Positions 15,304-35,398 of a stretch of 35,398 bases of DNA are shown in pieces. The notes under the pieces were generated by a model. That model was not told the origin of the DNA. It ran no database searches and saw only the letters and a program-made list of their open reading frames with translations. The stretch spans positions 1-35,398 of the forward strand of contig VBOT01000038.1 in assembly GCA_005893225.1 (NCBI GenBank). The letters are read 5' to 3'. Both the position numbers and the translations under genes were made by a program. Each line of letters begins with the position of its first letter. Within the stretch, counting starts at the first letter, position 1. This stretch comes from Candidatus Eiseniibacteriota bacterium (GTDB lineage Bacteria; Eisenbacteria; RBG-16-71-46).

Positions 15304-16708
15304 AGGTCCCCGGGGGCCGGCGCGCGTGCCAGTCGGAACGCTGCTGGTAGGCGTCACCGAGCGCGACCATCTCGCCCTCGGAGAACGCCTTGCCCATCAG
15401 CGACAGCGACGTCGGAAGGCCGTTCTCGCCGAAGCCGTTGGGCACGGCGAGGGCCGGGAGACCGCACAGGTTCCCGGCCGCGATGAGCGCCGGGCCACCG
15501 CCGATCCCCGGATAGGCGTCGTCGAAGTTCTTGTCGGCGGGATAGGCCACGCTCGCCCGCGTCGGCGCCACCACCAGGTCGTACTTCTCGAACAGGTCGG
15601 CGAGCGCCCGCTTCATCGGCGCCCTCAGGCGCATCGCCTGCAGGTAGTCCACCGCCGGGATCAAGGTGCCGGCGTAGCCGCCGTGCCGGTCCTTGGGGCA
15701 CTTGAGCTCCTTCACGCGCCCCGACTCGATCAGGTCGAGGAAGGCCGAGGCGCCCTCGGCGCCCACGATCGCCGAGACCGCGGGTCCCCACGGGAAGTCC
15801 GGCCACTCGACGTCGCGCTTCACGTCGGCGAGCTCGCCCAGGATCCCGAGCGAGCGCTCGAAGTTCTCCCGCACCTCCGGCTGCACCTTCTCGGTCACGC
15901 CCTTCGGCACCGCGAGCCGCGGGCGCCTGGCGAGCGGCGCCGGCCCGTCGTAGGCGAAGCCGCGCTCGAGGCTGCTCGGGTCGTCGGGATCGAGGCCGGC
16001 CATCGATGCCAGCACCAGCCCGCAGTCGTCCGCCGTGCGTCCCATGGGTCCCAGCTTGTCGAGCGTCCAGCACAGCGCCATGGCACCATGTCGGCTCACC
16101 AGACCGTAGGTGGGACGCAGCCCGGTTACGCCGCAGAACGCCGCGGGGGTCAGGATCGAGCCCGAGGTCTCGGAGCCGATCGCGAACGGAACCAGGCCGG
16201 CGGCCACGGCGGCGCCCGGCCCGCTCGAGGAGCCGCCGCTCCAGAACCGCGTGTTCCACGGCGAGAGCCCGGGGCCGGTGAAGGACGCGTCCGCGTGGTT
16301 GTAGCCCATGCCCCCGGCGAGCTCGACCATGGCGAGCTTTGCCACCAGGATGGCGCCCGCCTCGCGCAGGCGCTCGACCACGGTCGCGTCGTAGTCGAAC
16401 ACCTGATGCCGATAGGGCGCCGCTCCCCAAGTCGTGGGAACACCGCGGGAGGCGAGCAGGTCCTTCGCGCCGTAGGGGATTCCGTGCAGCGGCCCGCGGT
16501 ACTTGCCGGAGCGGATCTCCTGCTCCGCCGCCCGCGCCTCGCGCAGCGCTGGAGCGCGCATCAGGCTCACGACCGCGTGATAGCGGCCGCCGAGCCTCTC
16601 CAGGCGATCGAGGCAAGCGCCGGTGAGCTCCACCGGCGAGAGCCGCCGGTCGCGGATGCGAGCGCCGAGCTCGCGCACCGGAAGGAAGAACGTGTCGGGA
16701 TCGAGCAT
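15302..16708 (-). CDS. Amidase signature family hydrolase
   Basis: HGIPYGAKDLLASRGVPTTWGA (Lys), WSGGSSSGPGAAVAAGLVPFAIGSETSGSILTPAAFCGVTGLRPTYG (cis-Ser/Ser motif); no signal peptide evident. Confidence 0.93.
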   Translation of the reverse strand: MLDPDTFFLPVRELGARIRDRRLSPVELTGACLDRLERLGGRYHAVVSLMRAPALREARAAEQEIRSGKYRGPLHGIPYGAKDLLASRGVPTTWGAAPYRHQVFDYDATVVERLREAGAILVAKLAMVELAGGMGYNHADASFTGPGLSPWNTRFWSGGSSSGPGAAVAAGLVPFAIGSETSGSILTPAAFCGVTGLRPTYGLVSRHGAMALCWTLDKLGPMGRTADDCGLVLASMAGLDPDDPSSLERGFAYDGPAPLARRPRLAVPKGVTEKVQPEVRENFERSLGILGELADVKRDVEWPDFPWGPAVSAIVGAEGASAFLDLIESGRVKELKCPKDRHGGYAGTLIPAVDYLQAMRLRAPMKRALADLFEKYDLVVAPTRASVAYPADKNFDDAYPGIGGGPALIAAGNLCGLPALAVPNGFGENGLPTSLSLMGKAFSEGEMVALGDAYQQRSDWHARRPPGT

Positions 16709-29850: not shown

Positions 29851-30633
29851 TCAATCGATTCGGCCTGGAACGGCGGGGCCGGCGCCGCGCCGCCGGCTGC
29901 GAGCCACGGCGGCCGAGCCGCCGAGAAGGATCGCCGCAAAAGTGAACCACTGGATCGCGTAGCTCACGTGCATGAACTCGTCGAGGGGCCGGGGCGGCCT
30001 CCGGAGCGGCTTCTCCGGGACGCCGTGGCCGGGAAGCTCGCGCAGCACCACCGGCGCCAGCGCGTACGGAAAGCGAGGGGCCAGCGAATCGAGGTCGAGC
30101 CAGCGCGCCGAGAGAAGCTGGACCGAATCGCCCGACATCGCGCGCAGGGACGGGCCGCCGGCGCCTCGCCGCAGCGGATCGGCCAGGCCGGTGACCTCGC
30201 GCTCGCCCGGCTCGGGATAGTCTCGAGGGCGGGCGGTCGCGGCGTCTGGGGCATAGAGCCACCCCCTATCGACCAGCACGGCGTGCGTGCCGTTGCCGAG
30301 GAGCAACGGAGTCACCACGTCCACGCCCGGCGCGCCGTCGTGCGCCCGGCCCGCGAGCAGGATCTGCCTGCGCTCGTCGAACCGGCCGCGCATCTCGAGC
30401 TTCCGGCCGCGCAGCGAATCGACGGGTGCCGAGATCTCATCGAGGGGGATCGGCCGCCCGGCCAGCTCACTGCGCAATCCCGTGTTGAGAGCCTGCTTCT
30501 CGTGCAGGCGCGAGATCTGCCAGAAGCCGAGGCGAACGCACAGGGCGGCGACGGCCACGACCAGAACCGGCCAGAGGAGCGAGCTGGGTCTCACGGGCGG
30601 GGGAGCGGTCGCCTTGCCGCCGGCAGGGAGCAC
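29851..30633 (-). CDS. SURF1 family protein
   Basis: LCVRLGFWQISRLHEKQALN, RGRKLEMRGRFDERRQILLAGRAHDGAPGVDVVTPLLL, VLVDRGWLYAPDA, C-terminal YAIQWFTFAAILLGG. Confidence 0.9.
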   Translation of the reverse strand: MLPAGGKATAPPPVRPSSLLWPVLVVAVAALCVRLGFWQISRLHEKQALNTGLRSELAGRPIPLDEISAPVDSLRGRKLEMRGRFDERRQILLAGRAHDGAPGVDVVTPLLLGNGTHAVLVDRGWLYAPDAATARPRDYPEPGEREVTGLADPLRRGAGGPSLRAMSGDSVQLLSARWLDLDSLAPRFPYALAPVVLRELPGHGVPEKPLRRPPRPLDEFMHVSYAIQWFTFAAILLGGSAAVARSRRRGAGPAVPGRID

Positions 30634-30646
30634 ACGCTGCCCGCCG

Positions 30647-30889
30647 TCACGGAGACGCCGGCTTCGGCTGGGGCTCCGGAAGGTCGAAGGCGACGATCAC
30701 CGACTCGAAGCCGCAGGTCTTGTGAGTACTGTCGCAGAACGGCTTGTTGCTGGAGTGCCCACATCTACAGAGCGACACCCGGGGACGGCCGCCGAGGCCG
30801 AAGGGCCGGCCTTCCTGATCGACGATCTCGAAGTCGCCCTCGACTCGGATGGAGCCGTTGCTCATTACGGTGATTCGGGTTGCCGCCAT
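30647..30889 (-). CDS. CDGSH-type iron-sulfur domain protein
   Basis: PRVSLCRCGHSSNKPFCDSTHKTCGF; C-x-C...C-x3-H with S in place of the usual G. Confidence 0.9.
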   Translation of the reverse strand: MAATRITVMSNGSIRVEGDFEIVDQEGRPFGLGGRPRVSLCRCGHSSNKPFCDSTHKTCGFESVIVAFDLPEPQPKPASP

Positions 30890-31195
30890 GGATCCTCCGG
30901 TTGCGGCCGGGCGCCGCCCGCGTCTCGGCCCAGCGCCGGGCGGGCGGGATCGGTTCCGGAATCTAGCAAGAGTCCGGGCGGGGTGCGACTTCGCCCGCGG
31001 TCCCGGGGCCGCCCGGAGATCGCTCCGGGGGTGGTGCTTCCCTCCGGCGTGGTCCGGGGACAGATTGCGGGCCGGCCTGAAACCTCCCCGGGGGAGGTCG
31101 CGTAGTGTACCCTGCACGAGCCTGCCGAATCGCCGCGCTCTTCCCGAATCGGGAGCGGCCGCGGCGCTCGTCTGGCCGGAAAGGAGCGTCTCTCG

Positions 31196-31607: not shown

Positions 31608-32999
31608 CTACGCCACGGCGGGCTTGATGTTCTGATTCAACCGGAAGAGATTCTCAGGGTCGTACTTCGCCTTGATGCTCTGGAGCCTGGCGTACTTGGC
31701 AGCGCCGTACGTGGTGCGCAGCGCGGACTCGTCCAGTTCGTCGGACAGGTTGACGTAGGCTCCCTTCGCGTACGGCTCGAGCGCGCTCCATGAGTCCCGG
31801 ACCCACTGCACGCGGCCGGGCTTCTCCGCGGCCTCGTCCCAGATACCGATGAAGAGGGTCTGGAAGGCCGCCGAGCGTCCGCCGAAGGCGGTCTCGTCCT
31901 CGGGCACGCGGCTCACCGCCCCGCCCATCTGCACCATGAAGAACTGCGAGCGCCCCGCCGGCATCTTGGCGGTGCTCGAATGAATCCTCTGCGTCACGGC
32001 GTCGTCGAGATCGTGGATGTAGTGGGCCTTGAAGTAGGTCTGGGTCCCGTGCGGCAGCGCGGGGTCGAACATGCTCTGGAGCATCAGGTAGGGCATCGGC
32101 CCGATGACGTCGAAGAGCGGCGGTCCGAACGCCCGGATGGGCTTCATCGTCTCTTCGGCCACCGCCACGCTCGTGCCGGCCACGACGACCGCATAGCCCG
32201 GCTTGAGTCGCACCTCGGCGGGCACGAAGTCGAACGGAGGCGCGTGGAGGTACACGAGCAGGGTCGTGACCTCGTCGGGGCACTTCGCGCACAGTTCCCG
32301 GTACCGCCTAATCAGCTCCGGGCCCTTCTCCGCCGCCCAGAACGCGAGGCCGCCGAGCACGATGGGACCGACCGGGGCGAGCTTGAGCTCGAACTCGGTG
32401 GCGATACCGAAGTTCCCTCCCCCGCCCCGGATCGCCCAGAACAGGTCCGGATTCTCGGTCGCGCTCGCCCGCAGCACCTGGCCGTCGGCCGTCACGACCT
32501 GGGCGGAGAGCAGGTTGTCGATGGTGAGCCCGAGCTTCCGCATCAGGTGGCCGATCCCGCCGCCGAGCGTCAGGCCGGCGACGCCGGTGTGGGTCACGTG
32601 GCCGCCGGTGACCGCGAGCCCGTGGGGCTGCGTCGCCGCGTCCACGTCGGACCAGATCGCCCCGCCCTGGACCACGGCGCGCCGCGCCGCCGCGTCCACC
32701 GTGACCTTGTTCATGTCCCGAAGGTCGAGCATCAGCGCCCCGTCGGCGACCGAGTGTCCGGGCAGGCTGTGGCCGCCCGCGCGAACCGCGATCGAGATCC
32801 CCCGCGCGCGGGCGCAGGCCACCGCCGCCTTCACGTCCTCCACGCCCGCGCACCGCACGATGATGGCGGGCCGGCGGTCGATGTCGCCGTTCCAGATCTT
32901 GCGGGCCTCGTCGTAGCCGGAGTCCCCGCGGAGGAGGACCTGGCCGCGCATACGCTGCTTCAGCTCACCTGCGACAGACTCCGATTCACGCGTAGCCAT
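31608..32999 (-). CDS. FAD-binding oxidoreductase, berberine-bridge-enzyme-like (BBE domain)
   Basis: ISIAVRAGGHSLPGHSVADGALMLDLRDM, GLTLGGGIGHLMRKLGLTIDNLLSAQVVTADG, C-terminal YARLQSIKAKYDPENLFRLNQNI. Confidence 0.93.
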   Translation of the reverse strand: MATRESESVAGELKQRMRGQVLLRGDSGYDEARKIWNGDIDRRPAIIVRCAGVEDVKAAVACARARGISIAVRAGGHSLPGHSVADGALMLDLRDMNKVTVDAAARRAVVQGGAIWSDVDAATQPHGLAVTGGHVTHTGVAGLTLGGGIGHLMRKLGLTIDNLLSAQVVTADGQVLRASATENPDLFWAIRGGGGNFGIATEFELKLAPVGPIVLGGLAFWAAEKGPELIRRYRELCAKCPDEVTTLLVYLHAPPFDFVPAEVRLKPGYAVVVAGTSVAVAEETMKPIRAFGPPLFDVIGPMPYLMLQSMFDPALPHGTQTYFKAHYIHDLDDAVTQRIHSSTAKMPAGRSQFFMVQMGGAVSRVPEDETAFGGRSAAFQTLFIGIWDEAAEKPGRVQWVRDSWSALEPYAKGAYVNLSDELDESALRTTYGAAKYARLQSIKAKYDPENLFRLNQNIKPAVA

Positions 33000-33129: not shown

Positions 33130-34320
33130 ATGACCACGTTCCTCGAAGAGCCGATCGCAGCCGCGCCTTCATCGACGGCGCTCCGCGCGCGCGTGCCCGG
33201 GTACCTGGCCGCCACGGCGCTGGCGTCAACCAGCGTGATCGTGGGGCTTCTCTGGGACATCTCCTGGCATCGCACCATCGGGCGCGACCGGTTCCTCACC
33301 CCGGCGCACCTGGCGATCTACCTGGGGGGCCTCGTGGGAGGCCTGGCCTCCGGAGCGCGGGTGCTCAAGACCACCTTCGCCGGATGCCCCGAGGAGCGCG
33401 CCGCGAGCGTCGGCTTCTGGGGCTTGCGCGGGCCGCTCGGCGCCTGGCTCTGCATCTGGGGGAGCTTCGCGATGCTGACCTCGGCGCCGTTCGACAACTG
33501 GTGGCACAACGCCTACGGGCTCGACGTCGAGATCCTAAGCCCGCCGCACACGGTCCTGGGACTCGGGATGATCGCGATCGAGATGGGCGCGATGCTGCTC
33601 GTGCTCGCGCATCAGAACCGCGCCGGTGGGGCTTCCTCGGCTCTCGGATGGCTCTACGTCTACTGCGCCGGCATCGCGCTCCTCATGGCGGCCACGATCG
33701 CGTGGGAGTACACGGGGTTCCCGAACATGATGCACAGCGCACTGTTCTACAAGGTGAGCGCGGCAGCGTTCCCGCTCTTCATGATCGGACCGGCGCGGGC
33801 CGCCGCGATACGCTCGCCGGTCACGGCGATCGCGGCGGTCTACACCGGTCTCACGCTCGCGATGATGTGGATCCTCCAGCTCTTTCCCGCCACGCCTCTG
33901 CTCGGCCCGATCTACAACCCGGTGGGCCACATGCAGCCGCCCACCTTCCCGCTCCTCCTGGTCGTTCCGGCGGTGGCGCTCGACCTGCTCCTCGAGCGTC
34001 TCGGCGGCCGGAGCAAGTGGCGGCTCGCTGCTGCGCTTGGCGTCACGTTCGTGCTCTCGCTGCTCGTGGTGCAGTGGTTCTTCGCCGAGTTCCTGCTCTC
34101 CCCCGCGGCGCGAAATTTCGTCTTCGCCGCGGATCACTGGAACTACGGCTCGCGTCTCGGCCCGTGGCGCTACGAGTACTGGAATCTCGACCGGGACGGC
34201 GCGGGCCGCTGGAGCGGTGCGCGCTTCGCGCTCGGCATCGTCTGGGCCATGGCCGTCGCCACCGTGACCTCGAGGGTCGGCCTCGGCTGGGGCGCATGGA
34301 TGGCCAGGGTCAGACGATGA
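33130..34320 (+). CDS. Polytopic membrane protein with duplicated WH...PxH motif, unknown function
   Basis: Many hydrophobic segments; WDISWHRTIGRDRFLTPAHLAIYLGG and FDNWWHNAYGLDVEILSPPHTVLGLG. Confidence 0.8.
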   Translation: MTTFLEEPIAAAPSSTALRARVPGYLAATALASTSVIVGLLWDISWHRTIGRDRFLTPAHLAIYLGGLVGGLASGARVLKTTFAGCPEERAASVGFWGLRGPLGAWLCIWGSFAMLTSAPFDNWWHNAYGLDVEILSPPHTVLGLGMIAIEMGAMLLVLAHQNRAGGASSALGWLYVYCAGIALLMAATIAWEYTGFPNMMHSALFYKVSAAAFPLFMIGPARAAAIRSPVTAIAAVYTGLTLAMMWILQLFPATPLLGPIYNPVGHMQPPTFPLLLVVPAVALDLLLERLGGRSKWRLAAALGVTFVLSLLVVQWFFAEFLLSPAARNFVFAADHWNYGSRLGPWRYEYWNLDRDGAGRWSGARFALGIVWAMAVATVTSRVGLGWGAWMARVRR

Positions 34321-35398
34321 CCGCAGCGCCGGCCGGGATCGGGAGGCGCAAGGCCACCGCAACGGCCCTCGGCTTGGCGCTGGCGATCGGCTCCTGGTGG
34401 GGAACCTCCCGTGCGCACGTCGGCAGCCCCGACACGTGGTTCGAGGGCCCCGCCGGCCGCTACCCGGTGCGCGTTGTGGTGCGCGCGCCCGGGGTCGTGC
34501 CCGGCCTCGCCGAGATCGACGTCAGGGTGCTCGCGGGACGTCCCACCCGCGTCGCCGTCCAGCCGTTCATCTGGAACGGCGGCGCCGACGCGGCGCCGCC
34601 ACCCGAGAACGCGCTCCCGGTGCGGGGCGACCCCCGGCTCTTCGACGCCCACCTGTGGTTCATGGTCGCGAGCTCCTACGCCGTGCACGTGACCGTGTCC
34701 GGCGACCGCGGCGCCGGCAAGGCGATCGTGCCGGTGCAGGTGGTCGCCACACGGCGGTTGCCCATGAGCCCCGCGCTGGGCGGGTTGCTCGCGGCCCTCG
34801 GACTCTTCCTGCTCGCGGGGTTGCTCACCTTCCTGGGCGCCGCGGCCGGCGAGGGGGTTCTTCCGCCGGGCGAGCCGATCGACGCGAGTCACCGCCGCCT
34901 CGCCCGCGTGGTCGTGACCGTCTCGGCCGCGATCCTCGCCCTGGCACTCGCCGGCGGGCGGCAGTGGTGGAACGCCGTCGACCGCGCCTACCGGCAGAAC
35001 CTCAACCGGCCGCTCCACGCCGCCGCCACGCTGCTCGCGCGCGCGCCCGCACCCGTGCTCGGCATCGCCATCGACGACCCCGAATGGATGGGGCGCCGGT
35101 GGACGCCCCTGATTCCCGATCACGGAAAGCTCATGCACCTGTTCCTGATCCGCGAGCCGGGGCTCGACGCAATGGCCCACCTGCATCCCCTGATGCGCGA
35201 CTCGAGCCACTTCGAGTCTCCGTTGCCGCTACTCCCGGCCGGGCACTATCGGGTCTACGCCGACGTCGTTCACGAGAGCGGCTTCGCCCGTACGCTCGTC
35301 GCCTCGCTGGATCTCAGGCCCGGCGGCGGAGCGGCCACCCCATCCGAGGCCAGCGGGGACACCCCGGGGGCCGACCCCGACGACTCGTGGTACGTGGG
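34317..35398 (+). CDS. Exported YtkA/FixH-like protein, 3' end cut by the window edge
   Basis: Not in the ORF track because no stop lies before the edge; translated by hand: MTAAPAGIGRRKATATALGLALAIGSWWGTSRAHVGSPDTWFEGPAGRYPVRVVVRAPGVVPGLAEIDVRV...LIPDHGKLMHLFLIREPGLDAMAHLHPLMRDSSHFESPLPLLPAGHYRVYADVVHESGFARTL. Start overlaps the previous stop (ATGA). Confidence 0.82.
   Translation, partial: MTAAPAGIGRRKATATALGLALAIGSWWGTSRAHVGSPDTWFEGPAGRYPVRVVVRAPGVVPGLAEIDVRVLAGRPTRVAVQPFIWNGGADAAPPPENALPVRGDPRLFDAHLWFMVASSYAVHVTVSGDRGAGKAIVPVQVVATRRLPMSPALGGLLAALGLFLLAGLLTFLGAAAGEGVLPPGEPIDASHRRLARVVVTVSAAILALALAGGRQWWNAVDRAYRQNLNRPLHAAATLLARAPAPVLGIAIDDPEWMGRRWTPLIPDHGKLMHLFLIREPGLDAMAHLHPLMRDSSHFESPLPLLPAGHYRVYADVVHESGFARTLVASLDLRPGGGAATPSEASGDTPGADPDDSWYV

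Follow-up and report, generated by a model that had tools for sequence, protein, structure and literature searches.

pMMO and AMO are the enzymes that drive the methane and nitrogen cycles. The CuC site of PmoC carries a carboxylate. In subunit C of pMMO the ligands of CuC are Asp156, His160 and His173, with Arg165 nearby as a member of the water network at the pMMO site, and those of CuD are Asn227, His231 and His245 (PMC12576850). CuD, a neutral Asn/His/His copper, is held to be the methane-oxidizing site, and Phe177, Phe240 and Phe248 line the active site around it (PMC11194816). The gene described here appears to encode a distant and divergent protein of the superfamily to which subunit C of pMMO and AMO belongs.

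The window, the whole stretch of DNA that was analysed, comprises 35,398 nucleotides from Candidatus Eiseniibacteriota. As an initial annotation had proposed, positions 33130..34320 on the + strand (ATG at 33130, stop codon at 34318-34320) encode a 396-aa polytopic membrane protein, P0001. Upstream on the - strand lie genes for SURF1, a cytochrome oxidase assembly protein (29851-30633), a CDGSH iron-sulfur protein (30647-30979), and a BBE-type FAD oxidoreductase (31608-32999). A confident AlphaFold2 model of P0001 (mean pLDDT 92.5, pTM 0.91) predicts helices at residues 24-49, 58-84, 103-129, 138-164, 170-195, 204-224, 230-249, 278-291, 296-322, and 363-391. The first of two similar motifs is found where helix 24-49 ends and helix 58-84 begins, and the second at the end of helix 103-129 and the start of helix 138-164; the motifs are two helices apart and therefore fall on one membrane face of the model. 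Loops that carry arginine (223-228, 289-298, and 393-396) are on the opposite face, which suggests that the two sites face the periplasm. Comparison of the model with viral structures by Foldseek returned noise, and relatives of P0001 were not found in viral contigs.

The first motif, at 33256..33309 on the + strand (residues 43-60), reads D43-I-S-W46-H47-x3-G51-R52-D53-x4-P58-A-H60, or D43-x3-H47-x4-R52-x7-H60 in terms of its CuC-like residues. The second, at 33493..33549 on the + strand (residues 122-140), reads D122-N-W-W125-H126-x3-G130-L-D132-x5-P138-P-H140, and its CuD-like set, with Asp for Asn, is D122-x3-H126-x13-H140. Ligand spacing is D-x3-H-x12-H at site 1 and D-x3-H-x13-H at site 2. 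Both copies conform to the internal duplication drawn in the initial annotation (D-x2-W-H-x3-G-x-D-x4/5-P-x-H, with one gap between the copies), and alignment of site 1 with site 2 gave E 0.006, with 1 of 60 column-shuffled controls equally good. The second motif of actinobacterial relatives is D-x2-WH-x3-G(R/Q)D-x5-PPH, which is more like motif 1 than is the case in P0001 and thereby strengthens the duplication reading.

At least 153 relatives of P0001 were retrieved from 84,980 genomes, and 80 were kept for analysis. The six Asp and His ligands (D43, H47, H60, D122, H126, and H140) are invariant in 81 aligned homologues, and conservation is likewise 100% at W42, W46, G51, R52, and D53 in site 1 and at W125, G130, D132, and P139 in site 2. 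Because the search patterns contained peptides from both motifs, the set was split by retrieving peptide as a check for retrieval bias: site 2 was intact in 37/37 sequences retrieved through the site 1 peptide only, and site 1 was kept in the 32 retrieved through the site 2 peptide only. Among ORFs of the related loci, 81 of 3374 combined both spacings with a Trp before the first His; 74 of these fit a crude family pattern, and most of the remainder were ORFs located where the family members themselves lie. The invariance of both motif copies, on which the initial annotation had staked its proposal of a pseudo-symmetric metal site, is thus borne out, and the model places both on the same side of the membrane. 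Three further histidines that it had singled out as conserved-looking are to be dropped from that proposal: H202 is His in 75% of homologues and Arg otherwise, H267 is His in 70% and H336 in 11%, and for this reason all three are placed outside any site.

In PmoC the CuC ligands are arranged as D156-x3-H160-x12-H173, with Arg165 five residues past the first His; P0001 has the same spacing, R52 occupies the Arg165 position, and each of these residues is invariant in the family. An Arg-Asp pair and TP-x-H around CuC, the order of the two sites, and their location in the membrane are further likenesses to PmoC and AmoC. The CuD ligands, N227-x3-H231-x13-H245, have the spacing of site 2, but the ligand set itself is not kept, as Asp122 replaces the Asn in 81/81 sequences. 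The Asp-to-Asp distance between sites is 79 in P0001 and 70-71 in the actinobacterial relatives, and the corresponding distance in PmoC is 71.

As a single sequence, P0001 matched no entry of Pfam, NCBIfam or the PDB, nor did it match the Pfam AmoC HMM (PF04896). The earlier remark that no named family was recognized holds as far as Pfam and NCBIfam models are concerned, but the spacings, the AmoC HMM, and profile comparisons point to a distant relative of PmoC/AmoC. Relatives of P0001 score 19.8-23.1 bits against the AmoC HMM, and no scored member reaches the gathering score of 26.7 bits. When 399 genomes belonging to one class were searched with this HMM, it picked out 6 loci in 5 genomes, all below threshold (per-genome E between 7e-5 and 9e-4), and 6/6 were P0001-family loci, each with a recognizable P0002-like gene alongside. 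In a scan of single members 13/49 relatives matched AmoC (best E 5e-5), and no other family recurred comparably. The best match of the family profile among all PDB chains was AmoC (9cl6_C, E 5.8e-4; runner-up E 1.6). Alignment of the N-terminal half of the family with 57 PmoC sequences in hhalign gave E 9.5e-6 with both sites in register and a score of 42.8; none of 100 column-shuffled controls scored above 24.0, and the reversed control scored 15.5. Given that the AmoC HMM, the PDB profile search, and hhalign all point to PmoC/AmoC, the relationship is more than a coincidence of motifs, and shared ancestry of P0001 with PmoC is very probable. A structural comparison of the P0001 model with AmoC (9leg_C) in Foldseek gave probability 0.41, E 2.0, and rmsd 5.1 over 133 columns.

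The two sites contribute to this similarity in different measure. Site 1 compared with the CuC region alone scored 39.5 against a null maximum of 14.9, and an 18-residue block is alike even at non-ligand residues (DISWHRTIGRDTFWTPAH in the P0001-family consensus, DGTWHQTVIRDTDFTPSH in PmoC); site 1 can be considered a CuC homologue on statistically solid grounds. Site 2 compared with the CuD region alone was no more similar than chance in the profile comparison with shuffled controls, and the presumed equivalence of site 2 with CuD therefore rests on spacing and register.

P0001 can nonetheless be ruled out as PmoC proper: it lies below the family cut-off, has Asp for Asn at site 2, lacks the Phe pocket, and is not part of an xmoCAB operon. 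The positions of Phe177, Phe240, and Phe248 are occupied by Y64/Q64, I135/V135, and L143 in the P0001 family. In place of xmoC, xmoA, and xmoB together, the loci have a two-gene unit, the conserved genes being P0001 and P0002 only. The N-terminal helices of PmoC are absent from P0001, which instead has about 230 additional C-terminal residues, and its hosts differ from the known methane and ammonia oxidizers that carry PmoC or AmoC.

The top PDB match of the P0001 model in Foldseek was AmoA of AMO (9cl6_B, probability 0.99), with a TM-score of 0.47 on AmoA, a weak E of 0.15, and a matched part that was not localized within P0001; the C-terminal half may thus be AmoA-like. Profile comparison of that half with PmoA in hhalign was marginal (1/100 shuffles equally good), the best local match, GLxxGxWMxR, is at odds with a colinear alignment, and a search for PF02461, the PmoA/AmoA family, across one order of genomes gave no match.

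P0002 begins within the end of P0001 by a 4-bp overlap (ATGA), and its first 360 aa are encoded at 34317..35396 on the + strand. This part contains a signal peptide, an N-terminal His, Ig-like domains, and two membrane helices. A run of N, a scaffold gap at 15397-15501 of the extended locus (L084) that starts just past the window end (35396 onward), breaks the gene, whose coding sequence continues from about L084 15507, where a third domain with His (HAVVTRVDGSVFAHLHP) is encoded. A P0002-type gene adjoins P0001 in 79/80 loci, which hold no third conserved gene; neighbors common to some of them are lineage-specific. In 40 P0002 relatives a His immediately follows the predicted signal peptide, and four more (259, 264, 278, and 280 in the numbering of the L013 homologue) are invariant in the arrangement H-x4-H...H-x-H.

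The L013 model, with a beta domain, two membrane helices, and more beta domains, has the layout of PmoB, and PmoB and AmoB share with P0002 the predicted N-terminal His after signal cleavage. P0002 differs from them in that its domains look Ig-like and profile similarity is lacking (score 20.8 against PmoB, with 6/100 shuffles equally good and 22.2 for the reversed control). PmoB was not among the best 50 Foldseek matches of the L013 model, which were generic Ig folds, and P0002 was rejected as PmoB on the negative outcome of both comparisons. P0002 relatives do show weak Pfam matches to YtkA (8/40) and CopC (4/40, best E 0.012), too few and too weak for CopC membership, and a weak PDB match to a copper resistance protein (E 0.019). 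An Ig-like domain of copper-binding type that either adjoins a membrane protein or is joined to it in one chain is an arrangement that the P0001 relatives have in common with CopC/CopD and YtkA/FixH-type systems, from which they differ in that CopD is absent among the Pfam matches listed.

Several relatives on actinobacterial plasmids (L117, L118, L213, L214, and L215, from Mycolicibacterium, Leifsonia, and Streptomyces) are single genes in which a C-terminal Ig-like domain, FixH/YtkA-like by a weak Pfam match, is fused to the membrane protein. All keep every ligand and are annotated as hypothetical proteins. MYCCH_RS27980 of Mycolicibacterium chubuense NBB4 is one single-gene relative of this actinobacterial type. 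Most sit amid copper-resistance genes, namely copper P-type ATPases, CsoR-type and CopY-type regulators, multicopper oxidase, and cupredoxin. The Leifsonia locus has two heavy-metal P-type ATPases with an adjoining metal-sensitive regulator and a multicopper oxidase, that of S. mirabilis a cupredoxin and a P-type ATPase, and that of Streptomyces F2 a multicopper oxidase, a cupredoxin, and cytochrome c maturation genes; two mycobacterial plasmids offer a weaker context, with a heavy-metal domain, a CopY-type regulator, and YHS. Among the 80 loci of the main family, including that of P0001 itself, no such gene was found nearby apart from one cupredoxin-like ORF (L026). On a Rubrobacter marinus plasmid (L119 4900-6022) a relative in which the two motifs are present (..TWHATIGRESFWIPPH, DNLWHEMYGLDVTIWSPPH) is partly unannotated and apparently broken across reading frames.

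It is moderately likely that P0001 and P0002 together form a membrane complex with two copper sites that shares its ancestry with the copper membrane monooxygenases (CuMMOs) and is probably redox-active. Each P0001 site would most likely bind one copper ion at the periplasmic end of one of two helix hairpins, and copper is the likely metal at both. P0001 would work with membrane-anchored P0002, probably as a complex, and the N-terminal His and H-x4-H...H-x-H of the periplasmic Ig-like domains of P0002 would probably bind or pass copper. The pair is more easily seen as a copper redox or O2-using membrane enzyme than as a passive copper channel, because R52-D53 beside site 1, the equivalent of Arg165-Asp of PmoC, is invariant; catalysis of this kind has a near-even chance of being correct and is slightly preferred over copper handling. 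As both sites have Asp and the phenylalanines are replaced, it is unlikely that methane-type chemistry would be preserved as such.

Copper handling is a serious, if somewhat less probable, explanation. P0001 would then import, export or store copper by means of two sites at its surface, without catalysis, and P0002 would supply the metal through its copper-binding Ig-like domains, on the pattern of CopC and CopD. The copper-gene context of most actinobacterial relatives, together with their fused FixH/YtkA-like domain, argues for such a role, and the weak YtkA, CopC, and copper resistance protein matches of P0002 relatives agree with it, as does a carboxylate at both P0001 sites where catalytic CuD has none. 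Yet CopD was not matched, the main family is almost without neighboring copper genes, and an invariant Arg-Asp would be unusual for a conduit, the equivalent Arg being part of the water network in pMMO (PMC12576850).

A more ambitious form of the enzyme reading, in which P0001 is a natural fusion of the CuMMO membrane core (a CuC/CuD module followed by an AmoA-like half, in the operon order C-A) and P0002 replaces subunit B to give a minimal two-gene copper oxygenase of soil and sediment bacteria, is unlikely; if true, it would supply an outgroup for rooting pMMO and AMO. That P0001 is instead a membrane enzyme of another metal, for example Fe or Zn, whose motifs came to resemble CuC and CuD by convergence, seems decidedly improbable: D/H/H triads do bind Fe and Zn as well, and site 2 taken alone is not significantly similar to CuD, but convergence would hardly reproduce the non-ligand residues of the 18-residue block, shuffled controls never came near the observed score, and the actinobacterial relatives have a copper-gene context. 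A metal-free motif conserved for structure only is barely credible with six perfectly conserved Asp and His residues at the spacing of known copper sites.

The two-site copper complex of CuMMO ancestry, if correct, bears on the origin of these enzymes. An earlier study of pMMO and AMO history took archaeal AMO itself as outgroup (PMC6215863), and the P0001 family, a distant relative with the copper-site pair and Asp at both sites, could serve in that capacity for pMMO and AMO. Its readable internal duplication hints at a single D-WH-GRD-PxH hairpin whose duplication gave rise to both CuC and CuD, and the family may provide a simpler system for testing the requirements of each site. No description of this putative copper-protein family, which is unnamed in Pfam and NCBIfam, was found in the literature searched; subscription journals and preprints were outside that scope, and novelty is therefore relative to this literature, Pfam, NCBIfam, and the plasmid annotations.

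The family occurs in genomes labelled Gemmatimonadota, Acidobacteriota, Verrucomicrobiota, Binatota, and Eisenbacteria, and in its fused form in Actinomycetota; in sampled Acidobacteriota it is present in about 4% of genomes (8/199). A genome labelled Betaproteobacteria (G061, L080) groups with an Acidobacteriota class. A search run without a positive control found no AmoC-family gene in the genome of P0001 itself, and one was present in 1/6 genomes that hold P0001 relatives. In a Binataceae genome with a P0001 relative (G060; L085, at the end of contig 14), a true AmoC-family fragment adjoins a gene for a secreted protein whose C-terminal part is SCO-like. One further family copy (L207, G159:C1:1381455-1382615) contains a single in-frame TAG and may be a recent pseudogene.
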